Assembly (NCBI RefSeq): GCF_003316695.1
Contig: NZ_PDKB01000013.1
Coordinates: forward strand, 1 to 64,000
From: Aliarcobacter vitoriensis
GTDB lineage: Bacteria > Campylobacterota > Campylobacteria > Campylobacterales > Arcobacteraceae
DNA: 64,000 nt
Direction: 5' to 3'
Positions 4,395 to 50,618 of the stretch are shown piece by piece. The notes under the pieces were generated by a model. The model saw only the letters and a list, made by a program, of their open reading frames with translations. It was not told the origin of the DNA and did not search any database. The position numbers and the translations under genes were made by a program. Numbering within the stretch: the first letter of the stretch is position 1; every line of letters starts with the position of its first letter.

Positions 4395-5645
4395 TTATAA
4401 AATTAATCCTACAAATATTGTTAAAATACCTAAAACCATCAAACAAATTGAACTTGAAATTGCTTTTTTCTTTCCAAACCAAACTGTATATAAAGCTTTT
4501 AGTATATTATTACTTCCAGCTGCAATAATAATCGCTCCTGCAATTGATAAACTATCAATATTATAATTTCCAGCTAATAAAGATAAGATAAACGGGTCAA
4601 TATCTGTAAATCCAATTATTACAGAAAGGATATTAAGCCCTGTTGTGCCAAAACTATTAACTACTAAATTTGTAATAAGCATAGTTACAACAAACAAAAA
4701 GGCAAACACGAATGCTGTTCCTAATTCTAATGGGTTTGAATCTTCTAATTCAACATTATTATTTACTATATGAGAACCTTTTTTATAATAAATACCAACT
4801 ATTATCAAACAAATGACTGCAAATGCTAAAAATGGATAAACAATGATTTTAAAAACTTCCATATTAAAAATAGCTGCAATTACACTAAGTCTAAGATACA
4901 TCATTAAAGTTGCACTTACAATAGAAGCTGTAAACATATCACTATTCTCTAAGCATTGGGATTTTTTTGATAAAACAACTGTTGTTGCTGTTGAAGAGTA
5001 AAGTCCTCCTAAAACTCCTGTTAAAAGTAAACCTTTTGAAGGAAAGATATATTTTTGAACTATATAACTTAAATAAGAAATAGTTGATATAACTACAACT
5101 GTAAGCCAAATTTTATATAAAGAAATTCCAAGATAAGGTATAGTTGTATCTTTTGGTAGAAGTGGCAAAACAACTGCTGAAAGAAGAATAATCTTTCCTA
5201 AAGTCTCTAATTCATAGATATTTATTTTTAGTTTGAAATTGAACAATTTATTTTTTGCATTTAGTAAAAATATTATTACAACAAAAATTAAAGAGGCCAA
5301 CCAAAATGGAAAAATATCTATTAATGCACCAAAACTATACACAATCATAGCAACTAGAAAAAGTACTATACTATTTTTCTTATTTTCAAGAAGTTTATTA
5401 AAAAGCATAGTATAAAGAACTGTTATTGATATAAATCCTGCTATAAAGATAAAGAAATTATTTGGTTCTAATATATAAAATATAAATCCTACAATACCTA
5501 TAAAAGTGTAAGTTCTGGTTGTTCCAAAAAATGTTTTTATATCATTTTCATGAAATTTTAATCCATAAGCTTTAACTTCTAACCCTATTAAGAAACTAAA
5601 AACTGTTGTTGCAATAAAATCTATTAAAAGTTCATTGATTTCCAT
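4395..5645 (-). CDS. MgtC/SapB-family membrane protein with DUF4010 tail
   Basis: The protein has 416 residues and is almost wholly hydrophobic. Residues 1-130 match the MgtC/SapB-type module (LLIDFIATTVFSFLIGLEVK), and the C-terminal half matches DUF4010 (about 200-410, with GVLGGLYSSTATTVVLSKK and IIIAAGSNNILKALYTVWF). It is an inner-membrane protein; function is not established, although MgtC relatives are linked to Mg2+ limitation and virulence. I took the ATG at 5645 (MEINELLID) because AAGGATA precedes it with good spacing; an upstream ATG at 5681 would overlap promoter sequence. It diverges from modE, and the shared intergenic region holds an FNR-type box and a ModE-like repeat. Confidence 0.8.
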   Translation of the reverse strand: MEINELLIDFIATTVFSFLIGLEVKAYGLKFHENDIKTFFGTTRTYTFIGIVGFIFYILEPNNFFIFIAGFISITVLYTMLFNKLLENKKNSIVLFLVAMIVYSFGALIDIFPFWLASLIFVVIIFLLNAKNKLFNFKLKINIYELETLGKIILLSAVVLPLLPKDTTIPYLGISLYKIWLTVVVISTISYLSYIVQKYIFPSKGLLLTGVLGGLYSSTATTVVLSKKSQCLENSDMFTASIVSATLMMYLRLSVIAAIFNMEVFKIIVYPFLAFAVICLIIVGIYYKKGSHIVNNNVELEDSNPLELGTAFVFAFLFVVTMLITNLVVNSFGTTGLNILSVIIGFTDIDPFILSLLAGNYNIDSLSIAGAIIIAAGSNNILKALYTVWFGKKKAISSSICLMVLGILTIFVGLIL

Positions 5646-5688
5646 TTGTGTATCCTTAGTAAAACTTTGTAATAATATCATATTAATA

Positions 5689-5702
5689 TTGATTTAAATC
5701 AA
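5689..5702. promoter_or_regulatory. Perfect FNR/CRP-type box
   Basis: TTGAT-TTAA-ATCAA matches the consensus TTGAT-N4-ATCAA exactly and is the core of a 20-bp perfect palindrome (5686-5705). It lies 43 bp upstream of the MgtC/DUF4010 start and about 70 bp upstream of modE, so an oxygen- or redox-responsive Crp/FNR regulator could act on either gene. Confidence 0.6.
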
Positions 5703-5711
5703 TATCTATTA

Positions 5712-5749
5712 AGATATATAACGATACTATTTGATTACGTTATATATCT
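5712..5749. promoter_or_regulatory. ModE-like operator (12-bp inverted repeat)
   Basis: AGATATATAACG (5712-5723) and CGTTATATATCT (5738-5749) form a perfect inverted repeat with a 14-base spacer, ending 24 bp before the modE ATG. The arms contain the TATATAACG/CGTTATATA half-site known from E. coli ModE operators, but here the half-sites point outward rather than inward. Autoregulation of the mod operon by ModE is the natural reading. Confidence 0.6.
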
Positions 5750-5773
5750 AAAAATATAACAAAAGGATTATAT

Positions 5774-6556
5774 ATGCCAATATCATCTAATTTGACTTTA
5801 GAAATTTTGAATCAACCTTTTTTGCTTGAGAAAAGAATTGAACTACTTATGGCTATAAAAAAAACTGGTTCGATAAACAAAGCAGCAAAAGAAGTCCCAA
5901 TGAGCTATAAAGGTGCATGGGAAGCTATTGAAGCTATGAATAATTTATCAACAACTCCAATAGTTTTAAGAGAAACTGGTGGAGCAGGTGGCGGTGGAAC
6001 AACTCTTACAAAGTATGGAGAAAATCTTTTAGAAACATATTTTTTACTAAAAGAAGAGCAAAAAAAGTTTATTGAAAATCTAAATCGAATTACTGATTTG
6101 AATACTGGAACTTTAAAAACTATAAGGAGGTTATCTATGCAAATTAGTGCAAGAAATCAAATAATCGGTGTAGTTGATAATATCTCACTAGGAGCTGTAA
6201 ACGCTGAAATAGAGATAAAACTAAAAAGTGGAAATTCAATAGTTTCTATTATAACTAATAGTTCTGTTGAGAATTTAGGGCTTAAAATTGGAGATGAAGT
6301 TGTTGCTGTTATAAAATCTAGCAATGTTTTATTATCAACTCAAAGTGATTTAAAACTTAGTGCAAGAAACTCTTTAAAAGGTACTATTGAAGATATAAGT
6401 TTAGGTGCAGTAAATGCAGAAGTTGTAATAAATATTGGAGATAAAGATAAAATCGTTGCAGTTGTAACTGCAAATTCTATTTCTAATATGAAATTAGAAG
6501 TTGGAACAAAAGTTGATGCTATTATAAAAGCATCTGATATTATGATAGGAAGATAG
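5774..6556 (+). CDS. modE: Molybdate-responsive transcriptional regulator ModE
   Basis: The protein has 260 residues in the classic ModE layout. Residues about 10-115 are a LysR-like winged HTH (KKTGSINKAAKEVPMSYKGAW, then RETGGAGGGGTTLTKYG). Two Mop/TOBE repeats follow (about 125-190 and 195-260), each with an SLGAVNAE motif, which bind molybdate or tungstate at the dimer interface. It heads modE-modA-TOBE-modB-modC, with modA starting 8 bp downstream. An inverted repeat resembling its own operator lies just upstream. Confidence 0.93.
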   Translation: MPISSNLTLEILNQPFLLEKRIELLMAIKKTGSINKAAKEVPMSYKGAWEAIEAMNNLSTTPIVLRETGGAGGGGTTLTKYGENLLETYFLLKEEQKKFIENLNRITDLNTGTLKTIRRLSMQISARNQIIGVVDNISLGAVNAEIEIKLKSGNSIVSIITNSSVENLGLKIGDEVVAVIKSSNVLLSTQSDLKLSARNSLKGTIEDISLGAVNAEVVINIGDKDKIVAVVTANSISNMKLEVGTKVDAIIKASDIMIGR

Positions 6557-6564
6557 GAGATAGT

Positions 6565-7311
6565 ATGAAAAAAATTATTTTAGGTTTAGCACTATTATGT
6601 TCATCTGTTTTTGCTGGAACAGTTAATATCGCAGTTGCTGCAAATGTTAGCTATGCAATAAATGACTTAATCGCAGAATTTAATAAAACAAATCCAAACA
6701 CAAAAATAGAAGTAGTTCTTGGAGCTAGTGGAAAATTTACAGCACAAATTCAAAATGGTGCACCATTTGATATTTTTATGAGTGCGGATATGAAATTCCC
6801 TGAAACTTTATATAAAGAGAATTTAACTGCAACGCAACCTGTTGTTTATGCGCAAGGAAGTTTAGCAATATTAAGTGCAAAACCACTAGATTTCTCAAAA
6901 GGAATAGAAATAGTTTCAAATGACACTATCAAAAGAGTTGCGATTGCAAATCCGAAAACTGCTCCTTATGGAACTGCTGCTATTGAAGCACTAAAAAATG
7001 CAAATATTTTAGAGAAAAATGAAAGTAAATTTGTTTATGCTGAATCAATTTCTCAAGCTGTAACATATGCTTTAACTGCTGCTGATGTTGGATTTATCGC
7101 TAAATCTTTATTGTATGAAGATAAGATGGCTCAATATAAAGAAAATATAAATTGGATAAGTGTTGATCCAAAACTATATACTCCAATTGACCAAGGAATA
7201 GTAGTTTTAAATAAAGCAAAAGATAATGCTGAAGCTAAAGCTTTTTATGATTTTATCTTAAGTTCTAAAGCAAAAGAGATATTTAAAAACTTTGGTTATT
7301 TGGTAAAATAA
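6565..7311 (+). CDS. modA: Molybdate ABC transporter periplasmic binding protein ModA
   Basis: The protein has 248 residues with a Sec signal peptide (MKKIILGLALLCSSVFAG, cleavage near residue 17-18). The mature start VNIAVAANVSYAINDLIAEF and the GASGKFTAQIQNGAPFDIFMSAD stretch carry the Ser/Ala oxyanion-binding positions of ModA proteins. It delivers molybdate or tungstate to ModBC. It lies 8 bp after modE and 2 bp before the TOBE gene, so co-transcription is nearly certain. Confidence 0.93.
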   Translation: MKKIILGLALLCSSVFAGTVNIAVAANVSYAINDLIAEFNKTNPNTKIEVVLGASGKFTAQIQNGAPFDIFMSADMKFPETLYKENLTATQPVVYAQGSLAILSAKPLDFSKGIEIVSNDTIKRVAIANPKTAPYGTAAIEALKNANILEKNESKFVYAESISQAVTYALTAADVGFIAKSLLYEDKMAQYKENINWISVDPKLYTPIDQGIVVLNKAKDNAEAKAFYDFILSSKAKEIFKNFGYLVK

Positions 7312-7313
7312 AT

Positions 7314-7706
7314 ATGATTGCAAGAGTAAAAAATATTCAAAACAAAGACAATTTGAATATAGTAGAATTTGATTTTCATAATAACACTTTTAAAATGATG
7401 AGTTTGGATTTAAGTAGCAATTTACAAATAGGCTCAAAAGTTGAACTTCTTGTAAAACCTACAAATATTGTAATATCTAAAAATCATATAGAAGATATTA
7501 GTCTATCAAATCAAGCTCTTGCAAAAATTACTGATATACAAAATGGTGAACTTCTAAGTAGTATCAAACTAAAAATAGAAAATACTATTTTAGAAAGCAT
7601 TATCACAAAAGAGTCTTCAATAAGACTAAACTTAAAAAAAGATGATGAGATAAATATCTTGATAAAAGCTAGTGATTTATCTATAAATAGGGTTTTAAAT
7701 GATTGA
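7314..7706 (+). CDS. Two-TOBE-domain molybdate-binding protein in the mod operon
   Basis: The protein has 130 residues and appears to be two tandem TOBE/Mop-like repeats (about 1-62 and 65-128; [14 protein letters not shown] and [14 protein letters not shown] end them) with no HTH or transmembrane segment. The repeats are more divergent than those of ModE and lack the clear SLGAVNAE motif. It may buffer molybdate in the cytosol like Mop proteins or act with ModBC. It overlaps the start of modB by 8 bp, indicating translational coupling. Confidence 0.75.
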
Positions 7707-8391
7707 TTACTTACTAAATGTTGATTATGCACCTTTTATGCTATCTTTCAAATTAGCATTTATTACGACTTTGATTTTGTTTGTGTTATGTATGCCACTT
7801 GCTTGGTATTTATCTCAAACAAAGTCAAAATTTAAACCAATTTTGGAATCTCTTTGTACAATGCCATTGGTTGTTCCCCCAACTGTTTTAGGTTTTTATC
7901 TTCTTTGGGGGTTATCTCATAACTCTCCAATAGGACAATTTTTTGAGAACTATTTTGGGATAAAACTTGTTTTTAATTTTTATGGAATTATCATCGCAAG
8001 TTGTATTTATAGTCTTCCTTTTATGGTTCAACCTCTTCAAAGTGGATTTGAAAGTTTAAATAAAAATATGCTTGAAGCTAGTTATATAAGTGGAAAAAGC
8101 AAATTTACAACTGTTTTAAGAGTTGCATTACCAAATATCAAACCATCGCTTTTAACAGCACTTATTATAACTTTTGCACATACCGTTGGTGAGTTTGGAG
8201 TGGTTTTGATGATTGGTGGAAGTATTCCAAATGAAACAAGAGTTGCAGCTATTGCAATATATGAATTTGTTGAAGTATTGGACTACAAAGATGCTCATAT
8301 TTATAGTTTGATTATGATTGTAATGAGTTTTTTAACTCTTCTTGCAGTTTATGTTTTCAATGGTAATCAAAAAAAAGATAGGTTTTTTTAG
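7699..8391 (+). CDS. modB: Molybdate ABC transporter permease ModB
   Basis: The protein has 230 residues with five to six transmembrane segments and the ABC-permease EAA-type loop [20 protein letters not shown] (about residues 134-153). [18 protein letters not shown] is a typical ModB stretch. It forms the inner-membrane channel with ModC. Its stop is followed immediately by the modC ATG. Confidence 0.92.
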
Positions 8392-9246
8392 ATGATAAAG
8401 CTAGATATAAAAAAAGAGCTTCATGGGAGTTCTGGAAAAATGCTTTTAGCAGTAGATTTAAATATAAATAGCGGTGAATTTATAGCTTTAAGTGGAGTAA
8501 GTGGAAGTGGGAAAACAACTATTTTAAGAACTTTAGCTGGACTTGAAGAAGCAAATGGAGAAATAATTGTAGATAATGAAATTTGGTTAAATGATAAAAT
8601 CTCAAAACCTATTCAAAAAAGAGATATAGGATTTGTTTTTCAAGATTACGCACTTTTTCCAAATCTTTGTGTTATTGATAATTTACTTTATGTTACAAAA
8701 GATAAAGAGTTAGCAAAACATCTTTTAAATCTTACAGATATGTATGAACTAAAAAATAGATATCCAAATAGCTTAAGTGGTGGACAAAAACAAAGAGTGA
8801 GTTTATGTAGAGCTTTGATGAAAAGACCAAAATTGCTACTTTTAGATGAGCCGCTTTCAGCTTTAGACCCATCAATGAGAGTAAAACTTCAAAATGATAT
8901 TTTAACTTTACATAAAGAGTTTAATACAACTTCTATTATGGTAAGCCATGACCCAAGTGAAATGTATAAATTAGCATCAAGAGTTTTGGTTATGAGTAAT
9001 GGAAAAATAGTTGAAGATGGCTTACCAAAAGATATTTTATTAAAAACAAAAGGTAGTCAAAAATTTAGCTTTGAAGGTGAACTTTTGGATATAAAAAAAG
9101 TAGATGTTATAAATGTAGCAATCATAGCTATTGGACAACAAATTGTAGAAGTTGTAATAAGCGAAAATGAAGCACAAAATTTAGAAATTGGACAAATAGT
9201 AAATGTAAGCACAAAAGCATTTACTCCAAATTTACAAGGAGTATAA
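8392..9246 (+). CDS. modC: Molybdate ABC transporter ATP-binding protein ModC
   Basis: The protein has 284 residues. Walker A GVSGSGKTT (about 35-43), Q-loop FQDYALFP, signature LSGGQKQR, Walker B LLLLDEPLSALDP and the H-loop MVSHDP are all intact. The C-terminal 65 residues form one short TOBE-like domain, shorter than in E. coli ModC. It energises ModB. It closes the mod operon; a TonB receptor follows after a 48-bp gap that carries a ModE-like half-site. Confidence 0.92.
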   Translation: MIKLDIKKELHGSSGKMLLAVDLNINSGEFIALSGVSGSGKTTILRTLAGLEEANGEIIVDNEIWLNDKISKPIQKRDIGFVFQDYALFPNLCVIDNLLYVTKDKELAKHLLNLTDMYELKNRYPNSLSGGQKQRVSLCRALMKRPKLLLLDEPLSALDPSMRVKLQNDILTLHKEFNTTSIMVSHDPSEMYKLASRVLVMSNGKIVEDGLPKDILLKTKGSQKFSFEGELLDIKKVDVINVAIIAIGQQIVEVVISENEAQNLEIGQIVNVSTKAFTPNLQGV

Positions 9247-9260
9247 TTTTTTTTAATAGT

Positions 9261-9272
9261 CGTTATATATAA
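9261..9272 (+). promoter_or_regulatory. ModE-like half-site upstream of the TonB receptor
   Basis: CGTTATATATAA, ending 22 bp before the receptor ATG, repeats the half-site CGTTATATAT found in the inverted repeat upstream of modE. No second arm is present. It may let ModE act on the downstream operon, or the match may be partly chance in AT-rich DNA. Confidence 0.4.
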
Positions 9273-9294
9273 AAATAAATAAAGGAAGAAGAAA

Positions 9295-11277
9295 ATGACA
9301 AAAAAATTGAGTTTTGCAGTTGCAACTGCAGTTATGACATGTTCATTGGTTGCCAATGAAACAACTCACTTAGGTGAAGTAAATATAATAGCTGGAAATA
9401 ATTCTGATAGCAAATTTAAAAGCAATCAAATTTCAAGTGAAGATATGAAACTACAAGAAAAAAATACGGTTGTAGAGGCATTAAATACAATTAGTGGTAT
9501 TACAGTAAATAATCATGGAATAAGAGGAGAACAATCTGTTTCTATTAGAGGATTTAGTGCAAAACACGCTCCAGTTTTTATAGATGGTATTGCTGTAAAT
9601 GTACCTTATGATGGTTACCTAGATTTTGCAAACTTTACAACTTTTGATTTAGAGAAGATTCAAATAAGTAAAGGTTTAACTTCTACTCTTTTGGGAGTAA
9701 ATACTTTTGCAGGTGCAATTAACTTAGTTACAAAAAAACCAACAAAAGAGTTTGAAGGTACAATATCTGCTGGGGCATTTAGTGGAGAAGGAAGAAAAGC
9801 TTATTTAAATTTAGGAACAAATCAAGGTAAATACTATATCCAAGCTAGTGGTTCTTATTTAGATAGAGATTATGTTCCTATGTCGAGTAATTTTAACTCA
9901 ACTTCTGTTCAAGATGATGGGCATAGAGTAAACTCATACAAAGAAGATAGAAAAGTAAATCTTAAAGTTGGTTATACTCCAAATGATACAGATGAATATG
10001 CTATCAACTATATAAATCAAAAAACAAAAAAAGGTATGCCTTATCCAGTTTATCAAAGTGAGTTAGGTCAAAATTCATACAGACAATGGCCTTATTCAGA
10101 TAAAGAGAGTTTTTATTTTCTTTCAAATACAAACTTTGATTTAGGGTATTTAAAAAGTAGAATTTTCTATGATAAATTTGAAAACAATATGTACTTTTTT
10201 AAAGATAATACATTTAAAGAATTAAGAAGTAATCCAACACCTTATGATGCAAATACAAAAGGTATTTCACTTGAACTTGGGCAATACGACACACAAAGAA
10301 ATAGTTTAAAATTAGCACTTCATGCAAAACAAGATACTCAAAAAGACCTTGATAAAGATGGTAATACTTCAAGTGTTATGAAAATTAACTATTTATCTAT
10401 TGGTTTAGAAGATACTTTTAAAGTAACTGATGATTTTAGAGTTATTACAGGAATTAGCTGGGACAAAGATGATGTAAAAAAAGCTAATAATGGAAGTTTT
10501 AAAGCAAATGGAACTCGTCCTTATGAAAATGTAAAAGAGTTTGAACATACAAGTGAATCAGCTTTTAATCCTATGATTAAAGTTGAATATGATATAGATG
10601 AAACTTTTGGACTTTATGCTGGAATTGCTAAAAAAACAAGATTTGCTAGTCTAAAAGAAAGATACTCATTTAGATTAGGAAGCGCTATTCCAAATCCAGA
10701 TTTAAAACCTGAAAAAGCTATAAACTATGAAATTGGAGCAAATAAAATATTTGATAATCAAGGTATCAAATCAGCATTTTTTTACTCTGACGTAAAAGAT
10801 TATATTCAAACTGATAGAGTGACTAATCCTTTTGGTGGAGGAATGACTAATCAAAATAAAAATATTGGAAAAGTAAAACATATGGGTTATGAATTAGAAT
10901 ATTTCTATTCATTTGATGAAACTTTAGATTTTGATGCAAGTTATACAAGACTTTTAGCAGAAGATAAAGATAAAAAAGTTGATATAACAGATGCTCCAAA
11001 ACATAAAATTGCTTTAGGTGTAACATATAGACCAATCAAGGCTTTAACAACAAATGTAAATATGCAATACTCTTCAAACAGACATACAACTTCAAATGAT
11101 AGAAGTAAAGATACAAGCGGTGCAGCTATTTGGAATGCAAAAATTGCTTATGAACTTGTAAAAGGATTGACTATTGATGTAGGTGCTTCAAATATATTTG
11201 ACAAAAACTACGAATATAACTATGGCTATCCAGAAGCTGGAAGAGTTATATACTCAAATTTAACATATAAATTCTAA
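9295..11277 (+). CDS. TonB-dependent outer-membrane receptor of the Mod/Mol-linked operon
   Basis: The protein has 660 residues. Signal peptide (about 1-20), plug domain (about 40-145, with HGIRGEQSVSIRGFSAKHAP and FAGAINLVTKKP) and a 22-strand barrel ending in the aromatic YSNLTYKF belt signature. It transports a ligand across the outer membrane using TonB energy. It begins an apparent seven-gene operon: LLM flavoprotein, BtuF/MolA-like binding protein, permease, ATPase, methyltransferase and SUOX-fold protein, each overlapping or nearly touching the next. Position right after modC and the ModE-like half-site suggest a molybdate/tungstate or related metal-chelate ligand; an iron siderophore cannot be ruled out. 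Confidence 0.85.
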   Translation: MTKKLSFAVATAVMTCSLVANETTHLGEVNIIAGNNSDSKFKSNQISSEDMKLQEKNTVVEALNTISGITVNNHGIRGEQSVSIRGFSAKHAPVFIDGIAVNVPYDGYLDFANFTTFDLEKIQISKGLTSTLLGVNTFAGAINLVTKKPTKEFEGTISAGAFSGEGRKAYLNLGTNQGKYYIQASGSYLDRDYVPMSSNFNSTSVQDDGHRVNSYKEDRKVNLKVGYTPNDTDEYAINYINQKTKKGMPYPVYQSELGQNSYRQWPYSDKESFYFLSNTNFDLGYLKSRIFYDKFENNMYFFKDNTFKELRSNPTPYDANTKGISLELGQYDTQRNSLKLALHAKQDTQKDLDKDGNTSSVMKINYLSIGLEDTFKVTDDFRVITGISWDKDDVKKANNGSFKANGTRPYENVKEFEHTSESAFNPMIKVEYDIDETFGLYAGIAKKTRFASLKERYSFRLGSAIPNPDLKPEKAINYEIGANKIFDNQGIKSAFFYSDVKDYIQTDRVTNPFGGGMTNQNKNIGKVKHMGYELEYFYSFDETLDFDASYTRLLAEDKDKKVDITDAPKHKIALGVTYRPIKALTTNVNMQYSSNRHTTSNDRSKDTSGAAIWNAKIAYELVKGLTIDVGASNIFDKNYEYNYGYPEAGRVIYSNLTYKF

Positions 11278-12275
11278 TGAAAACTGCACTTTTTGCACTT
11301 TTTGAGAATTGGGAAAATGATTACCAAAAAGCAATAACAGACCAAATTGATTTGGTTTGTTATGCTGAAAATCTGGGTTTTGATGAAGCTTGGATAACAG
11401 AACACCATTTTAACAACTTTAGTGTAATTCCATCTCCTTTAACTCTAGTAAACTATCTTTTAGGAAAAACAAAAAATATCAAAATAGGAACAGCTGGAAT
11501 TTTACTTCCATATTATAATCCTATAAAACTAGCAGAAGAGATAGCCACTATAAAAGCTTTTGATGATAATAGGTTTTTATATGGTATTGCAAAAGGTGCA
11601 TTTGCTATTTATGATAAAACTTTTCATACAAATGCTTTAACAAATAGAGAAGTTATGTTTGAAGCAAATGAACTTATACATAAGCTTTTACTTGAAGAAC
11701 AAGTAAACTTTAAGGGTAAATTTTTTTCTTGTGAAGATATATCAATTCGCCCAAAAATAAAAGATAATTTTACAACTTTTTTAGCTTCAGAATCTCTTGA
11801 AGCAATAGAAAAATGTGCAAAAGATGATTTTGGACTTATTGGAAGTTTAGCTTTAAGCAAAGAAAAAATGAAAGAAATATTCACGAATTTCCAAAATTTT
11901 AGCCCAAATAAAAAGCTGTCATTTAGAGTAGCAAGAGGTATAAATATAGGCTTTGACAAAAAAGAAATAGAAGAAGAAACAAAAAAAAGTGCCGATATAT
12001 TTATCAACTCAATGCGACTTTCAAAACAGACAAATCCAACTTTAGCAAAACTTCTAACATCTGAGTATATTGATATCAGAAATACCATATTTGATAAAAA
12101 TAGAATTTTAGAAAACTCTATTTATGGAACTCAAAAAGAGTGTATTGAACAAATAAAAGCTTTAAAAAATGAGTTTGATATTGAAGCAATACTTCTAAAA
12201 CCACTCACAACTTCTACAAAAAGAGCAAAAGAAGTTTTAAATTTATATATAAAAGAGGTAAAACCTTATGTTTAA
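11277..12275 (+). CDS. LLM-class flavin-dependent oxidoreductase
   Basis: The protein has 332 residues with the bacterial luciferase-like TIM-barrel pattern: YAENLGFDEAWITEHHF near the N-terminus, and GTAGILLPYYNPIKLAEEIA, the common LLM substrate/flavin-site stretch. It is probably a cytosolic FMN-dependent monooxygenase or reductase. Its start codon shares the A of the receptor stop (TAATG), and its end overlaps the binding protein start by 8 bp. In this setting it might modify or release an imported chelator (inference). Confidence 0.75.
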   Translation: MKTALFALFENWENDYQKAITDQIDLVCYAENLGFDEAWITEHHFNNFSVIPSPLTLVNYLLGKTKNIKIGTAGILLPYYNPIKLAEEIATIKAFDDNRFLYGIAKGAFAIYDKTFHTNALTNREVMFEANELIHKLLLEEQVNFKGKFFSCEDISIRPKIKDNFTTFLASESLEAIEKCAKDDFGLIGSLALSKEKMKEIFTNFQNFSPNKKLSFRVARGINIGFDKKEIEEETKKSADIFINSMRLSKQTNPTLAKLLTSEYIDIRNTIFDKNRILENSIYGTQKECIEQIKALKNEFDIEAILLKPLTTSTKRAKEVLNLYIKEVKPYV

Positions 12276-13281
12276 AATAGTTTTTTTAATTTTATCTTTA
12301 TGTTTTTATGCAAATGCAAACAGTTACAAAGATATGTTTGATGAAAATATAGAGATAAAAAAAGTAGATAAAATTTATGCCTCAACTCCTACAATTTTAT
12401 ACTCACTTTATGCTGTTGATAAAAGTAAAATTGCAGGATTGAATTTCCCTTTTAATGAAATAGAAGCAAAATATATAGATGAAAATATAAAAAATCTTCC
12501 TATTATTGGTGGTTGGTTTGGAAAAGGAAATACTCCAAATAGTGAGATGATTTTAAAAATAAATCCAGATGTGATACTACTAAGTGAAACTTCAAAAGAG
12601 CAAAGTGAAAAAAAAATAAAAGATAGTTTGGGAAATATAAATATTCCATTTTTCTATATAAAATCTTCAACTTTAGAAGATATTATAAACTCATTTTCAT
12701 ATTTAGGTAAATTAACTTCAAATGAAAAAAGAGCAAAAGAGTTAGAAGATTATGCAAACAAAGTTTTAAATGAAGCAAAAGAAGTATCAAAAAAAGTTAC
12801 AAAAAAACCAAAAGTATATTATGCTCAAGGAAATAATGGACTTGAAACTGAATGTGATAGTTCTGTAAGATCTGAACTTATAACTTTTGCAGGTGGAGAG
12901 AATTTACACAAATGCCAAAATTCAAATACTTATGGAAAACAAGCTATAAATTTTGAAAAAGTTTTATCATACAATCCAGAAGTTATATTGGTTTATGAAA
13001 AAGAGTTTTATAAAAAAATTTACAATGACCCAAAATGGCAATTTATAGATGCAGTAAAAAACAAAAGAGTATATTTTTTACCTAAAGGACCTTTTTCTTG
13101 GTTTGATAGACCACCATCTTTTATGAAAATATTAGGGCTTAAGTGGTTACTTAATATCTTACACAATGATATTTATCAAATTGATATAAATAAAGATGCA
13201 AAAGAGTTTTATTCACTATTTTTAGGCTTAGAAATAAGCGATGAACAATTAAATCATATTATGGGAAAAGATATTGAATAA
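12268..13281 (+). CDS. Periplasmic binding protein of a BtuCDF/MolABC-type importer
   Basis: The protein has 337 residues with a signal peptide (MFKIVFLILSLCFYANA). It belongs to the helical-backbone BtuF/FhuD/MolA class (cluster A-type): VDKIYASTPTILYSLYAVD, INPDVILLSE and the C-terminal WFDRPPSFMKILGLKWL motif. That motif recurs in iron-complex and MolA-like binding proteins. In Haemophilus, MolA of this fold binds molybdate/tungstate; here the adjacent mod operon points the same way but does not prove it. It overlaps the genes on both sides. Confidence 0.75.
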   Translation: MFKIVFLILSLCFYANANSYKDMFDENIEIKKVDKIYASTPTILYSLYAVDKSKIAGLNFPFNEIEAKYIDENIKNLPIIGGWFGKGNTPNSEMILKINPDVILLSETSKEQSEKKIKDSLGNINIPFFYIKSSTLEDIINSFSYLGKLTSNEKRAKELEDYANKVLNEAKEVSKKVTKKPKVYYAQGNNGLETECDSSVRSELITFAGGENLHKCQNSNTYGKQAINFEKVLSYNPEVILVYEKEFYKKIYNDPKWQFIDAVKNKRVYFLPKGPFSWFDRPPSFMKILGLKWLLNILHNDIYQIDINKDAKEFYSLFLGLEISDEQLNHIMGKDIE

Positions 13282-14278
13282 ATATCTATTTTTGATTATT
13301 GCTTTAGTGGTTTTGATAAATAGTTCACTATTTATTGGAAATTATGATATTTCATTTGATAATTATATAAATTTTATAAAAGCATTATTTGGTTTTAAAT
13401 CAAATCTAACACAAGAGCAATATGACTTATTAAAAAGTATCATCTTTGATATTAGATTACCGCGAATTATAGCTGCAGCAATGATTGGTGCTTCACTAGC
13501 AATTTCAGGAGCAGCTTTTCAAGCTATGTTTGTAAATCCACTTGTTTCTCCTGGAATTTTGGGAGTTTTAAGTGGTGCTTCTTTTGGAGCAGCTTTAGGA
13601 ATGGTTTTAGGTTGGTCTTGGTTTTTTATAAATCTTAGTACATTTATCTTTGGTTTTTTAGCAGTAGTTTTTGCACTTTTTATCTCTTATATTTATTCAA
13701 ATGCAAAAAATATGATTATCCTAGTTCTTGGTGGGATTATTAGTAGTTCACTTTTTGGAGCATTACTTTCTATTTTAAAATATAGTGCTGATCCTTATGA
13801 TACTCTTCCAGCAATTACTTATTGGCTTATGGGAAGCTTGTCTTTTAGTACTTCAAGCATAGTTTGGAATTTAACTATTCCTATGCTTTTAGGCGTATTT
13901 ATTTTGATTTTTTTATCAAAATACCTAAATGCCTTAAGTTTAGGAGATGAAGAAGCAAAAGCTTTAGGAGTTGATACAAAAAAGATTAAAATTGTTGTTA
14001 TTTTAGTGGCTACTTTTATAAGTGCTTTAAGTGTTATTTTAGCTGGGATTATAGGTTGGATTGGGCTTATTATTCCACATATTGTAAGATTTTTATTTGG
14101 AGCAGATAACAAAATAGTTCTTCCAATAAGTGCTATTATAGGAGCTATTTTCTTGCTTATTGTTGATAATACCTCAAGAATGATATTTAGCTTTGAAATT
14201 CCAATAGGTATTGTTACATCAATTATTGGAATACCAATATTTATTTTAGTTTTAAAAAATGCGAAAAAAGGTTTTTAA
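13274..14278 (+). CDS. FecCD/BtuC-type ABC importer permease (MolB-like)
   Basis: The protein has 334 residues with about ten transmembrane helices. RLPRIIAAAMIGASLAISGA and NPLVSPGILGVLSGASFGAA are FecCD-family signatures, and GLIIPHIVRFLFGAD is the coupling region near the C-terminus. The start is a TTG at 13274, inside the preceding gene. It forms the type II importer channel with the ATPase that starts on its stop codon (TAATG). Confidence 0.85.
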   Translation: MNKYLFLIIALVVLINSSLFIGNYDISFDNYINFIKALFGFKSNLTQEQYDLLKSIIFDIRLPRIIAAAMIGASLAISGAAFQAMFVNPLVSPGILGVLSGASFGAALGMVLGWSWFFINLSTFIFGFLAVVFALFISYIYSNAKNMIILVLGGIISSSLFGALLSILKYSADPYDTLPAITYWLMGSLSFSTSSIVWNLTIPMLLGVFILIFLSKYLNALSLGDEEAKALGVDTKKIKIVVILVATFISALSVILAGIIGWIGLIIPHIVRFLFGADNKIVLPISAIIGAIFLLIVDNTSRMIFSFEIPIGIVTSIIGIPIFILVLKNAKKGF

Positions 14279-15042
14279 TGCTTTTAATTGATGCAAAAAA
14301 TATCTCTTTTTCTTACCAAAAAAAAGAGGTTTTAAATGATATAAATTTTGAACTTCATCAAGGAGATATATTATCTTTGATTGGGAAAAATGGTTGTGGA
14401 AAAACCACTTTATTAAAAATACTTTTGGGAATTTATAAAAGCTCTGGAGATATAAAAATATTATCAAAGAATATCAATGATTATAAAAATAAAGAGTTAG
14501 CAAAACTTATATCTTATGTTCCTCAAACTCATCAAATACCTTTTGATTATACAGTTTTTGATGTAGTTTTGATGGGAAGATTGGCACATATAAATCTATT
14601 TTCAAACTATTCACAAAAAGATATTGAGATAACTATAAAAAACTTAGAAAAAGTTGGCATTTTACATTTAAAAGATAAAATATACTCACAAATTAGTGGA
14701 GGAGAACGACAACTAGCCTTTATTGCTCGTGCTTTAACACAAAATGCAAAAATCATATTTATGGACGAGCCTGTAACTGGACTAGATTATGGAAACCAAT
14801 TAAAACTTTTGAAGTTTTTAAAAGAGTTAGCAAATGAGGGATATACTTTTGTAAAAACTACTCACTATCCAGATCATGCGTTATATGCTTCAAATAAAGT
14901 TATGATGTTAAAAGATGGAAAAGTTTTGGATTATGGGACAGTTGATGATAAACTAACAGTTGAAAATATAAACCAACTTTATGATGTAAATGTTGAGATA
15001 ATATCAAAAGAAAATTATAAATTCTGCATACCAAAAATTTAG
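14278..15042 (+). CDS. ABC importer ATP-binding protein (MolC/FecE-like)
   Basis: The protein has 254 residues. Walker A GKNGCGKTTL, signature ISGGERQLAFIARAL, Walker B IIFMDEPVTGLD and the switch TTHYPDHAL are intact. It is a type II importer ATPase paired with the FecCD-type permease. HYPDHAL-type switch regions are seen in the iron-complex/Mol subgroup. An 8-bp gap separates it from the methyltransferase. Confidence 0.85.
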   Translation: MLLIDAKNISFSYQKKEVLNDINFELHQGDILSLIGKNGCGKTTLLKILLGIYKSSGDIKILSKNINDYKNKELAKLISYVPQTHQIPFDYTVFDVVLMGRLAHINLFSNYSQKDIEITIKNLEKVGILHLKDKIYSQISGGERQLAFIARALTQNAKIIFMDEPVTGLDYGNQLKLLKFLKELANEGYTFVKTTHYPDHALYASNKVMMLKDGKVLDYGTVDDKLTVENINQLYDVNVEIISKENYKFCIPKI

Positions 15043-15050
15043 GAGAAAAA

Positions 15051-15857
15051 ATGGCACTGGTAAAAACAAATTTAGATGAGTTAAATTTTTCAAAACTCTA
15101 TAAAAAACAGATGAAAAACTCTACTTTTAAAAGTAAAAGTAGCAAAGATTGGGATAATAAAGCAAAATATTTTAGTCAAAATGTTGTAAATAGTCCTTAC
15201 ACAAAAGAGTTTATAAGCAAAGTGGATACAAGTGATTGTGAAACGCTACTTGATGTTGGAAGTGGACCAGCAACCATCTCTTTGGCTCTTGCAAAAAAAC
15301 TAAAAAATGTTTATGCTCTTGATTACTCACAAGAGATGCTAAATTATGCAAATGAAAATGCAAAAGAGAAAAATATAGATAATCTTACAACAATTCATAA
15401 ATCTTGGTATGACTCTTGGGAAGATGTACCAAATACTGATATGGTAGTTGCTAGTCGTTCTATGGAAGTAAAAGATATAAAAAAAGCTTTACAAAAACTA
15501 AATGAAAAAGCAAATAAAAGAGTTTATATCACTACAAAAGTTGGTGGAAGCTTTATTGATAAAGAGATACTAGAGCAAATCAAAAGAGATATTATTCCAA
15601 GACCTGATTATATATATTTAGTAAATTGTTTACATAGTATGGGAATATTTGCAAAAGTTGATTTTATCAAAACAAACTCTTCAAAATTTGATACACCAAA
15701 TGAAGATGATTTTATACAAAGTTTAAAATGGAGTTTAGGTGATATGTCAAAAAAAGAGGAAAAAATCCTAAGAGAGTATTTTAATACAACATATAAAAAT
15801 AAGAAATCAAAAGAGACTATAACTTGGGCATTTATTTCGTGGGAGAAAGAAGTATGA
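15051..15857 (+). CDS. Class I SAM-dependent methyltransferase
   Basis: The protein has 268 residues. Motif I LLDVGSGPATISLALAKKL binds S-adenosylmethionine, and VYALDYSQEMLNYANENAK supplies the acidic ribose-binding residue. The N-terminal 60 residues are a basic lead (WDNKAKYFSQNVV). Substrate unknown. It is cytosolic and embedded in the TonB/ABC operon, overlapping the next gene by ATGA. Methyltransferases beside such importers may modify an imported or exported chelator, but this is inference. Confidence 0.75.
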   Translation: MALVKTNLDELNFSKLYKKQMKNSTFKSKSSKDWDNKAKYFSQNVVNSPYTKEFISKVDTSDCETLLDVGSGPATISLALAKKLKNVYALDYSQEMLNYANENAKEKNIDNLTTIHKSWYDSWEDVPNTDMVVASRSMEVKDIKKALQKLNEKANKRVYITTKVGGSFIDKEILEQIKRDIIPRPDYIYLVNCLHSMGIFAKVDFIKTNSSKFDTPNEDDFIQSLKWSLGDMSKKEEKILREYFNTTYKNKKSKETITWAFISWEKEV

Positions 15858-16357
15858 AAAAAATATTTTTAGTTTTAATATTTTCATTATCGCTATTTGC
15901 AAATGAAAATTACAAAGTATCAACAAAAGTTGAAGTTTATGGTTTAGTTTTAAATAAACTATCATTAAATGTAGAAGAGCTTGAAAAAATGAGTTATTTT
16001 AAAAGTGGTTCAACTCCTGTTATTTGTATGAGTGGAGAAACAAAAGATAATGTAGAAAGCTATGAAGGTGTCTTGCTAAAAGATATTTTAGATAAAGCTG
16101 TTGTTGATATAACTAGCAAAAAAGATTTTAATAAAATATATATTCAAGTTATTGCAAGTGATGGCTACGATGCAATTTTTTCATACAATGAGGTTTTTAA
16201 TACCAAACTAGGAGATAATATAATAGTTTTTTATAAGAAAAATGGCGAATATCTTAAAGATTATCAAGGTAAAATCGCACTAATAAGTATAGATGATATA
16301 AGAAATGGACCAAGACATATAAAATGGCTTGAGAAAATTGTTGTGGGTAAAATATAA
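15854..16357 (+). CDS. Small periplasmic protein with SUOX/Moco-binding-like fold
   Basis: The protein has 167 residues from the ATG at 15854, which overlaps the methyltransferase stop; an upstream ATG at 15824 would hide the signal peptide. Signal MKKIFLVLIFSLSLFANENY is followed by the pattern of the oxidoreductase molybdopterin-binding family (PF00174): VICMSGE with a cysteine, YEGVLLKDIL, ASDGYDAIFSYNEV, and a terminal RHIKWLEKIVV. Full SUOX enzymes are longer, so this may bind rather than catalyse. Its presence last in an operon next to mod genes strengthens the molybdenum link. Confidence 0.65.
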   Translation: MKKIFLVLIFSLSLFANENYKVSTKVEVYGLVLNKLSLNVEELEKMSYFKSGSTPVICMSGETKDNVESYEGVLLKDILDKAVVDITSKKDFNKIYIQVIASDGYDAIFSYNEVFNTKLGDNIIVFYKKNGEYLKDYQGKIALISIDDIRNGPRHIKWLEKIVVGKI

Positions 16358-16464: not shown

Positions 16465-18865
16465 CTAAAACCTATATTTCAAAGTAGCCATCCAATTTCT
16501 CTCTTCTCCATAATTGTAATTATTAAAGCTAGTTTTGTACTCTTTATCTAAAGCATTTTTGATATTTACCAATAAACTTAAGTTTTTATTAAATTCATAA
16601 TTTGCCATCAAATCAACTACAAAATAATCTTTTTGTGTAGCTTCGCTAACCATTTCAGGATAACCAGCTTGTATATAATAACCTTTTACTGTATTATCAA
16701 AAATTTCACTTTGCCATCTTACACCACCACCTAAAGTTAATTTAGATATAGGTTTATAAGTAGTAAATAGATTTGCTGTTCTAATAGGTATAGCATCACT
16801 TGTTAATCTTTTTCCATTTTTATCTTTAAGAATTGATGAAGAGAAACCAGCTTGCACTTGCCAATAAGGAGTAATTTCTCCTGCAATTTCAAACTCCCAA
16901 CCTTTGTTTTTTGTATCATCTTCTGCTTTCATTGCACAACCATTAGTACCTGGAACTTTATAACAAAGCCCTGTGTCTGGATTTATATCAGTTACTGCAA
17001 GATCATCTTTACCTGATTGGAAAAGTGCAATACTAGAGTTTAATCTTCCATCAAACCATTCACCTTTTAAACCAACTTCATAGTTAAATCCAGTTTCTGG
17101 GTCAAGAAACTTATCACCTTTATCTTTATGATTTTGTGGATTAAATATCTCTGTATAACTTACATAAGTTGTAAGATTTTCTGTAAGATCATATGTTAAA
17201 GCTAAATATGGTAAAAAATTATCAAATTTTCTATCATCTACAATAGTAGTACCTTTCCAAATATGTTTAGTTTCCCATTTACTATATCTTCCACCTAAAA
17301 TTGCAGAGAAATCATCTGTAAAGTTTAATTTTGTTGAAATAAATATTCCATATTGTTTTGTTGAATAATTACTTCTAGTAGAACTATATTTAGACCAATC
17401 AGGTTCAATATGCACTAACTTATTATTACTAATACTAAAACCTGTTCCATCCCAACTTTGCTTTCCTGTATGTTCAGCCTTTGTTTTTATTACATTTGCT
17501 CCAATAACTAAATCATGAGATTTCCCCCATAAATCAAAAGCTCCATTTAACTTTATATCTGCTGAATGATTTTCTTCCCAAACATCATATTTTCCAAGTC
17601 CAGCTTCACGTACAGTGTAATTATTTACCCAAGCATTTGCTCCACTATATTTGACTGCTCTATCTTGTTTAATATAGTTATATTTAGCGTCTATTTTCCA
17701 AGAATCATTAATATGATGATTTAAAGCTAAAGTGTAATTATCTATTGTTGATTCTTTTTTCGTCCAATCTGAAGTATACCAAGTATATTTATCAAAGTTT
17801 GTTAAGCCAACTCTCTTATATGGTCCTGTCGCATTAAATAAAAATCTTTCTCCACCAGCTTCCTGATAAGCATTATTTTCAGCTTTTGACATTTCCCAAG
17901 AACCAGATATTGTAGTTGAATCACCTAAATCAGCTTCTACAACACCATATAAAGTATTATTTTGTCTATCAAGTAAAGGGTTAAAATATCCACCTTGATT
18001 ATGAACAGCTATAAATCTTCCTCTTATACTTCCATCTTCATTAAATCCACCACCAATATCTACAACACCCCTATATTTGTCCCATCTTCCAGTTTGTACT
18101 TCAAGTAAAGCTTGAAACTCTTTTGTTGGTTTTTTTCGTACTAGATTTATACTTCCACTTGGATCTCCAGCACCAGTTAAAAGTCCATTTGCTCCTCTTA
18201 CTATAGAAACAGAGTCGTAAATGCCTGACTCGAAACCTCCATCTTGATTAAATTCAAATTGTGTAGTAAAGTTCGATGATCCATCTATTTGAAAATTTTT
18301 AATTTTATAACCACGAGACCAAAAAGTAGCACGCTGTGGATCATTTGTTGGAGTTGATTCTACATAAACTCCAGTTACATTTTTCATCACATCGTTTAAA
18401 TTGTTTAATTGTTGATCTTCCATTCTTTTTGAAGTTATAACTGAAACTGATTGTGGTGTTTCTTTAAGTGATAAGTTCATACCAGTTGCTGAATTGTCTT
18501 GGCTACGAGTGTAGCTATTTTCTTTATTATCTTTTACAGAAATTTCATCTAAAACAGTAGTATTACCAAAGTTTTGATATTTTGGTTTTTCTATTATGTA
18601 TATTATGCTATCTTCTTCGATAGCTTTGAGATTATGTTCTTCTAATATAATATTTAGATTACTTAATACCGTACCCCCCCCCGAAACTCACTTTTTCTGA
18701 GTCTATACTTTTATCTTTCAAGTTATTAGCTTTTGAAATATATGTTACATTATATCTCTTTACTATATTCTCTACTGCTTCTTGCAAACTTATCTCTTTT
18801 GCATTTAACATTGTTCCACTTAACATCATTGATGCTAAAACTGAAATGAAAACTCTATTTTTCAT
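16465..18865 (-). pseudogene. Phase-variable TonB-dependent siderophore receptor with STN domain, out of frame (OFF)
   Basis: The reading frame is broken at a run of nine Gs (coding strand; 18674-18682). Upstream, 18865-18659 encodes a signal peptide and the first part of an STN domain and stops 11 codons after entering a wrong frame. Downstream the correct frame continues GTVLSNLNIILEEHNL..., finishing the STN domain, then the plug (SLKETPQSVSVITSKRME, GSINLVRKKPT) and a full barrel ending ATLKYRF. With eight (or eleven) Gs the gene would encode about 799 residues, normal for FpvA/FoxA-type receptors. The rest is undamaged, so this is a contingency locus switched off rather than decay, unless the count is a sequencing error. 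The STN domain implies signalling to a FecR-type anti-sigma factor. Confidence 0.85.
18674..18682 (-). repeat. G9 homopolymer tract (phase-variation switch)
   Basis: Nine consecutive Gs on the coding strand of the receptor gene, about 60 codons from the start. It is the only G or C run this long that I saw in the window. In Campylobacterota such tracts slip during replication and switch genes on and off. Nine Gs is out of frame; eight restores the frame. Confidence 0.85.
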
Positions 18866-49795: not shown

Positions 49796-50618
49796 TATAA
49801 TAAAAATATCTTTGGTCTTTGCTCTTGCTACAACTTATTCTTATGCTTCAAAAATAGTAAGTGTTGGTGGAAGTATCACAGAAACTATTGTTGAGTTAGG
49901 ACATGCTGATAAATTAATTGGAGTTGATTTATCAAGTGCTTATCCAAAAGAGATTACTTCAAAATTGCCAAATGTTGGATATTGGTTAAATCTTCCACAA
50001 GAAGGAATTTTATCTTTAAAACCAGAAGTTGTTATTACAAGTAGTCAAGCAGGACCAAAAAAACTTATAGATAGCCTTCCAAACTATGGAATAAAAACTT
50101 ATGTTGTAGAAGATAATCCTACAATAGAATCTGCAAAAAATAAGATAAGACAAATTGGTGAGATTTTGGGTGAAAAGGAAAAAGCTTCAAATATTATAGA
50201 AAGAATTGAAAGTAATGTTTCAAAAATGCAAGAAGAGATAAAAGATAAAAAAAAACCAAAAGTTCTATTTTTATTCTCAAGAGGTGAGGGCACTATAATG
50301 GCTGCTGGAACTGAAACAAAAGCAGGATATATGATAAATATTGCGGGTGGAGAAAATGTAATTGATTTTAAACAATATACACAAATATCACCAGAATCTA
50401 TTTTAAAGATGAATCCAGATGTTATTATAACTTCAAATCATACTGGTGAAACAGGTTTAGATAAAAATATTGTTGCTTCAACAAATGCTGGAAAAAACAA
50501 CCAACTTTATACTATGGATATGCTTTTAATATCAGGGTTTACTGTAAGAGTTGATAGTGCTTTGCAAGAACTATCTTGTATGTTTAACAATAATAAACTC
50601 TCATATTGTAGTAGATAA
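49788..50618 (+). CDS. hmuT: Heme ABC transporter periplasmic binding protein
   Basis: The protein has 276 residues with a signal peptide (MHNIIKISLVFALATTYSYA). IVSVGGSITETIVELGHADK, PNVGYWLNLPQEGILSLKPEV and MNPDVIITSNHTGETG are HmuT/ChuD-like. It brings heme to HmuUV. It overlaps hugZ by 8 bp and precedes the permease by 2 bp. Heme specificity rests on the neighbours. Confidence 0.83.
   Translation: MHNIIKISLVFALATTYSYASKIVSVGGSITETIVELGHADKLIGVDLSSAYPKEITSKLPNVGYWLNLPQEGILSLKPEVVITSSQAGPKKLIDSLPNYGIKTYVVEDNPTIESAKNKIRQIGEILGEKEKASNIIERIESNVSKMQEEIKDKKKPKVLFLFSRGEGTIMAAGTETKAGYMINIAGGENVIDFKQYTQISPESILKMNPDVIITSNHTGETGLDKNIVASTNAGKNNQLYTMDMLLISGFTVRVDSALQELSCMFNNNKLSYCSR

Follow-up and report, generated by a model that had tools for sequence, protein, structure and literature searches.

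The passage of molybdate and tungstate through the outer membrane is generally regarded as passive. Behind the modE-modA-TOBE-modB-modC genes of Aliarcobacter vitoriensis, in the 64,000-nucleotide stretch of contig NZ_PDKB01000013.1 analyzed here (the window), lies a block of genes predicted to encode a further importer, with its own TonB-dependent outer-membrane receptor. The closest described system is MolABC of Haemophilus influenzae (HI1472-HI1471-HI1470), which features, as the block does, a class III substrate-binding protein (SBP), a FecCD-type permease and an ATPase, and in which molybdate represses molB (PMC4031551). According to its descriptions, MolABC imports free molybdate across the inner membrane with low affinity, whereas the block adds a TonB receptor, a luciferase-like (LLM) flavoprotein and a SUOX-like protein, and the pocket of its SBP carries a different signature (two conserved Cys, His214 and Arg281). 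With the ModABC/ModE regulon the block shares the locus, the regulator and the operator, which in E. coli is the convergent dyad CGnTATATA-N6-TATATAnCG (PMC545781); going beyond that regulon, it would bring under ModE another importer, unrelated to ModABC, that includes an outer-membrane step. Such a step is part of the H2-T6SS-ModA-IcmP route of molybdate acquisition in Pseudomonas aeruginosa (T6SS, type VI secretion system; PMC8602904), which works through a secreted protein carrier and a metalloproteinase rather than a TonB receptor and an ABC importer. FmdE (PF02663) and DUF364 (PF04016), families which accompany relatives of the block, have been noted beside metal ABC transporters, and DUF364 in the vicinity of molybdate and tungstate genes as well, in parts of PMC2954224 and PMC2954201; the same parts report no control of a TonB receptor by ModE or by molybdenum cofactor (Moco) RNAs. 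MolABC, ModE, the vicinity of FmdE and DUF364 to metal transporters and the T6SS route are thus already known. A search of the open-access literature turned up no TonB system conserved across several phyla and controlled by ModE and Moco RNAs, and the article on Moco RNAs speaks of neither TonB nor FmdE in its main text. It is possible that control of TonB receptors by ModE has been noticed before.

We assign a probability of about 0.8 to the reading that the block is a ModE-controlled importer of molybdenum or tungsten (Mo/W) that includes active transport through the outer membrane. At the level of sequence, this reading is built on gene content, operators, conservation across phyla, the Moco RNAs of relatives and kinship to MolBC. 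The role in Mo/W uptake is well supported, because operators and Moco RNAs recur and MolB and MolC are the nearest solved relatives of the transporter. On the same three grounds, the proposal of a first-pass annotation of the window, a ModE-linked, MolABC-like Mo/W importer with its own TonB receptor, is supported.

Operators were scored as matches to the 16 positions of the E. coli consensus. Between modC and the receptor gene lies a complete predicted operator, CGTTATATA-N6-TAAATAAAG, matching at 14 positions. At 9261 only a half-site had been annotated: a search for the exact word CGTTATATAT, found in three copies in the 64 kb, all where the annotation had put them, confirms its position, but the site is a whole dyad. 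A chance half-site is ruled out by the full dyad, the consensus spacing and conservation across genomes. Likewise, the inverted repeat placed upstream of modE is rightly located, but really consists of two adjacent operators (Table 1). The 2.43-Mb genome holds seven sites with two mismatches or fewer (about 1 per 350 kb). Three are the window operators, one precedes a moaA operon, and one the gene of a sulfite-oxidase-type Mo enzyme; as the sites outside the window include these two, the motif finds Mo genes. Both score 14/16: the site at L180:2756-2779 precedes a glycosyltransferase-MoaA operon, that at L178:2792-2815 a Mo enzyme gene accompanied by a small neighbour protein. The DUF4010 gene divergent from modE is likely to be a further ModE target, judging from its own operator. 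Since the operator of the block adjoins the start codon and E. coli offers a precedent, molybdenum would repress the block via ModE.

Of the 249 genomes of the order, 37 carry the SBP family, and a scan of named-species genomes detected relatives in Desulfobacterota, Syntrophia, Geobacteraceae, Spirochaetes, Nitrospirota and others (taxon names taken from record titles). The 88 loci of relatives collected (1.52 Mb) contain 42 ModE operators scoring at least 14/16, compared to 0.2 in shuffled sequences, 3 for the reversed motif and 0–2 for other spacer lengths; operators scoring 15/16 number thirteen, and are missing in the shuffles. No more than 400 bp downstream of 29 of the 42 there is a family gene, and the distance to its start codon is mostly 9–44 bp; 25 of these operators precede genes for a receptor, SBP, globin, TonB, methyltransferase or SUOX-like protein, and four modE or modA. 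Thirty TonB-receptor loci of the same order that are unrelated to the system (143 kb) contain no such operator. A strong ModE match (E < 1e-10, a limit set after the list was seen) occurs in all 37 SBP-carrying genomes and in 152 of the 249 overall (hypergeometric 1.6e-9, uncorrected for kinship). The comparison of neighbourhoods that the first-pass annotation had suggested thus finds operators in front of the importer across phyla, even where gene order changes.

Relatives are also marked by RNA elements. Seven Desulfuromonadales-type loci have a Moco (RF01055) or Moco-II (RF01713) RNA immediately in front of importer genes. Moco RNAs lie before DUF364-receptor-SBP-SBP in L080, before a receptor in L126, before SBP-FecCD-ATPase-FmdE-ExbB-ExbD-TonB and a second time before a receptor-like gene in L082, and before SBP-FecCD-ATPase-FmdE and again before a methyltransferase in L095; Moco-II RNAs head methyltransferase-receptor-SBP-FecCD-ATPase-FmdE in L116, L138 and L139. 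L080 and L108 harbour an extra Moco RNA, accompanied by a 15/16 ModE site, just behind the SBP and before XdhC-like and mod genes. Thirty-two such RNAs are spread over about 18 Mb in the genomes of L080, L082, L095, L108 and L126, and eight of these fall inside the loci, which together span roughly 99 kb. Stem P3 is absent from all ten aligned Moco aptamers, and the P3-less form has been associated with the tungsten cofactor by Regulski et al. (PMC2408646); the RNAs of the relatives therefore suggest that tungsten is among the cargoes.

Five genomes of the genus that lack the block (G008, G057, G235, G083 and G217) carry modE-modA-TOBE-modB-modC-methyltransferase (the TOBE gene was not called in G083), the methyltransferase being 61–85% identical to the window copy. 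In the window, G027, G154 and G120 the receptor, LLM, SBP, permease and ATPase genes lie between modC and the methyltransferase, and a SUOX-like gene lies 3' of the latter. By gene order, these five genes are an insertion into an older modE-A-TOBE-B-C-methyltransferase operon. The methyltransferase is outside the insert, because modC directly precedes it in the five congeners, and its membership in the import block is ruled out by these importer-less genomes. Of the seven-gene unit annotated at first, the gene content stands, but the single unit resolves into the five-gene insert, the old methyltransferase, wrongly counted with the new genes, and the SUOX-like gene. An operator heads the block in all four genomes carrying it, 9–15 bp before the first gene; in G120 the block opens with the SBP, not the receptor, and a 15/16 operator precedes the SBP. 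In the same genome (L033/L067) nifH, nifD and nifK lie directly upstream of modE. A conserved protein of about 244 aa, without Pfam match and marked by the motif IAIDDTDEIG, is encoded inside the block of G154 and G120 (L032:4570-5304 and L033:2003-2734, both minus strand) and in other Campylobacterota loci.

The best PDB match of the permease is 2nq2_A, that is HI1471 (MolB), with 222 bits, followed by FhuB (178), haem permeases (about 152) and BtuC (133); that of the ATPase is 2nq2_C, HI1470 (MolC). As few FecCD permeases are solved, the match denotes kinship and is no proof of cargo. The uncharacterised Sulfurospirillum protein 4PAG belongs to the SBP family (E 3.5e-128). Among proteins with known ligands MolA ranks first by both sequence (102 bits) and fold (Z 26.5), uncharacterised proteins scoring higher. 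The receptor features both Plug and beta-barrel domains (PF07715, PF00593). Dedicated ExbB/ExbD/TonB trios occur in several relatives, none within the window block.

The companions of the importer differ among lineages. LLM genes are found in 14 of 20 Campylobacterota loci and globin genes in 10 of 20, versus none of 58 other loci for either; conversely FmdE and DUF364 are missing in 33 Campylobacterota loci and present in 37 and 27, respectively, of the 58 others. LLM-globin and FmdE-DUF364 may represent alternative solutions, each confined to its lineages, for dealing with one and the same cargo, and one of them plausibly requires oxygen. Bac_globin (PF01152) genes reside beside LLM in the ModE-operator loci L040, L042, L047, L111, L112 and L123, sometimes directly behind the operator, and it is conceivable that the globin supplies oxygen to the flavoprotein. 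With regard to a kinship to the chelator-cleaving LLM monooxygenases NtaA/EmoA (NTA/EDTA type), the nearest solved structures of the flavoprotein are luciferase chains, and the nearest NCBIfam model is MsnO8, below its cut-off. MoeA (seven loci, one by a weak match), ModD (nine loci) and formate dehydrogenase are further companions. A 379-aa protein without Pfam match (L087:2351-3490), with relatives in L083, L130 and L134, recurs beside the importer in Desulfobacterota-type loci.

The SUOX-like protein resembles PruR, a small exported protein of the same fold: its model (predicted local distance difference test, pLDDT, 84) gives Z scores of 15–16 with sulfite oxidases and of 14.4 with PruR over 126 residues. 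Cys58, invariant in A1 and A3, aligns, albeit weakly, with the nitrate reductase Cys. PruR has a Trp at the place of this Mo-ligating Cys, which rules out identity with it, and no DcpA-type partner was seen beside it. The protein ends after its first domain, PF00174 being the only match and the Mo-co dimerisation domain PF03404 missing; as the Cys is kept and the second SUOX domain absent, it fits the definition of PruR as little as that of a typical Moco enzyme. The simplest guess is that it may be a periplasmic Mo/W- or pterin-binding protein. SUOX-like genes are annotated in 7 of 78 loci, and more lie below the model cut-off.

In the mechanism we infer, the identity of the cargo, the direction of regulation and the roles of all enzymes, the LLM flavoprotein, methyltransferase and SUOX-like protein included, being part of the inference, ModE would leave the operator at 9261-9284 when Mo/W is scarce, and the receptor, LLM, SBP, permease and ATPase genes would be expressed together with modABC. 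A Mo/W complex would be taken up by the TonB receptor, bound in the periplasm by the MolA-like SBP and carried inward by the MolBC-like transporter. The metal might then be freed by the LLM flavoprotein in microaerophiles (with globin in many relatives), or by FmdE and DUF364 in anaerobes, and the SUOX-like protein might retain Mo/W or a pterin within the periplasm. If this is true, Mo/W complexes are actively captured at the outer membrane in several phyla, which would bear on nitrogen fixation, on formate metabolism and on the sulfur cycle where habitats are sulfidic or poor in Mo; FmdE and DUF364, two widespread orphan families, gain a testable role, and the solved protein 4PAG a suggested function. 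One would also have to ask if free molybdate is really what the low-affinity MolABC evolved to carry.

Several results weigh against a Mo/W importer. A strong ModE operator is present in only 32 of the 88 loci, and no Moco RNA was found in the window block; Moco RNAs are equally missing in the Campylobacterota loci searched, and RF01055 in the whole source genome, and control by such a riboswitch is rejected for the window. The SBP fold is also near to the iron-siderophore binder YiuA (Z 24.8) and the nickel binder CeuE of H. pylori (Z 23.2); as both score close to MolA, the fold does not name the cargo, and its comparison does not discriminate among Mo, Fe and Ni. The conserved residues Cys196, Cys216, His214 and Arg281 are not found in MolA at aligned positions, and the ligand may therefore differ from bare molybdate. 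The resemblance to YiuA, and Pfam and NCBIfam names of the block proteins pointing to iron, haem or B12 systems, would suit an iron-siderophore, haem or cobalamin importer lying behind modC by chance and expressed through read-through. This is very improbable: operators and Moco RNAs recur before the system across phyla and gene orders, and Fur control is ruled out at 9180-9300, where no Fur-like box was detected (best 11/19). Apart from the SBP of the block, the genome encodes two PF01497 binding proteins, one or both of them within a receptor-SBP-permease-ATPase cluster; the supply of iron could therefore be independent of that SBP. Hardly credible is an operator at 9261 without function, associated with the block only as a neighbourhood inherited with the mod locus; one arm is indeed imperfect (two mismatches), but the site keeps its distance to the first gene in all the block-carrying genomes though that gene differs, and sites this good are as rare in the genome as stated above.

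As to what a Mo/W importer would carry, the odds that it is an organic chelate are about even. Nonribosomal peptide synthetase (NRPS) condensation domains and IucA/IucC have no match in the genome, other chelator pathways lying outside the search; own synthesis by these two routes is thereby discarded, and any chelator is probably external. The lack of these genes would equally suit a bare oxyanion, or thiomolybdate and thiotungstate, imported without organic chelator, the receptor being needed only for scarcity in sulfidic habitats. Haemophilus MolABC takes molybdate and tungstate, many hosts are, judged by name, sulfate or sulfur reducers, and sulfide converts molybdate to thiomolybdate (PMC10390477). 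Yet companions such as LLM, FmdE, DUF364 and the SUOX-like protein hint at an organic component. Small anions, moreover, already pass through porins, and this alternative appears doubtful. A pterin-bound metal, salvaged from external Moco, tungsten cofactor or their breakdown products, is less probable still. The SUOX-like protein has the fold of Moco domains and of the pterin-binding PruR with the Mo-ligating Cys kept, Moco RNAs control relatives, and DUF364 has been linked to pterin-like compounds (PMC2954201). The SUOX-like gene is, on the other hand, annotated in few loci, the copies below the model aside. Free Moco is also very oxygen-labile. Were pterin-bound metal imported, Moco would be a public good shared between cells, not solely a cell-made cofactor.

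The open reading frames, coordinates and families annotated at first all agree with the list of frames and the family matches, as does the position of the block directly after modC. The ends of the block frames overlap or nearly abut (Table 1). For the SUOX-like gene a start at ATG 15854 is more likely than at TTG 15824. A consensus scan of the modC-receptor interval found no terminator, and folding gives only a weak hairpin.

Table 1. Genes and predicted ModE operators of the mod locus and import block (window positions)
Feature	Position	Strand	Remarks
DUF4010 membrane-protein gene	4395-5681	-	divergent from modE; own ModE operator close to start
ModE operator	5700-5723		14/16; proximal to divergent DUF4010 gene
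ModE operator	5738-5761		14/16; 12 bp upstream of modE
modE, full length	5774-6556	+	DNA-binding domain and two Mop/TOBE domains
modA, molybdate-binding protein	6565-7311	+	TIGR01256, above cut-off
TOBE/Mop-domain protein	7314-7706	+	family match
modB permease	7699-8391	+	open reading frame; order kept in all congeners examined
modC ATPase	8392-9246	+	weak hairpin and T-run across gene end (9222-9254)
Second ModE operator	9261-9284		14/16; between modC and receptor, 10 bp from start codon
TonB-dependent outer-membrane receptor	9295-11277	+	PF07715 (Plug) and PF00593 (barrel)
LLM (luciferase-like) flavoprotein	11277-12275	+	Bac_luciferase
Periplasmic class III SBP, MolA/4PAG type	12268-13281	+	Peripla_BP_2
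FecCD/BtuC-type permease	13274-14278	+	FecCD; nearest solved relative HI1471 (MolB)
ABC ATPase	14278-15042	+	nearest solved relative HI1470 (MolC)
S-adenosylmethionine (SAM) methyltransferase, class I	15051-15857	+	ancestral mod-operon member
SUOX-fold exported protein	15854-16357	+	Oxidored_molyb; invariant Cys58 at Mo-ligand position

A second PF01497 binding protein is encoded in the window at 49854-50519. The TonB receptor gene at 16465-18865 (minus strand) is split, a run of nine C (18674-18682) separating it from its signal-peptide start; it is one of five copies of its receptor family in the genome, and looks like a phase-variable receptor.

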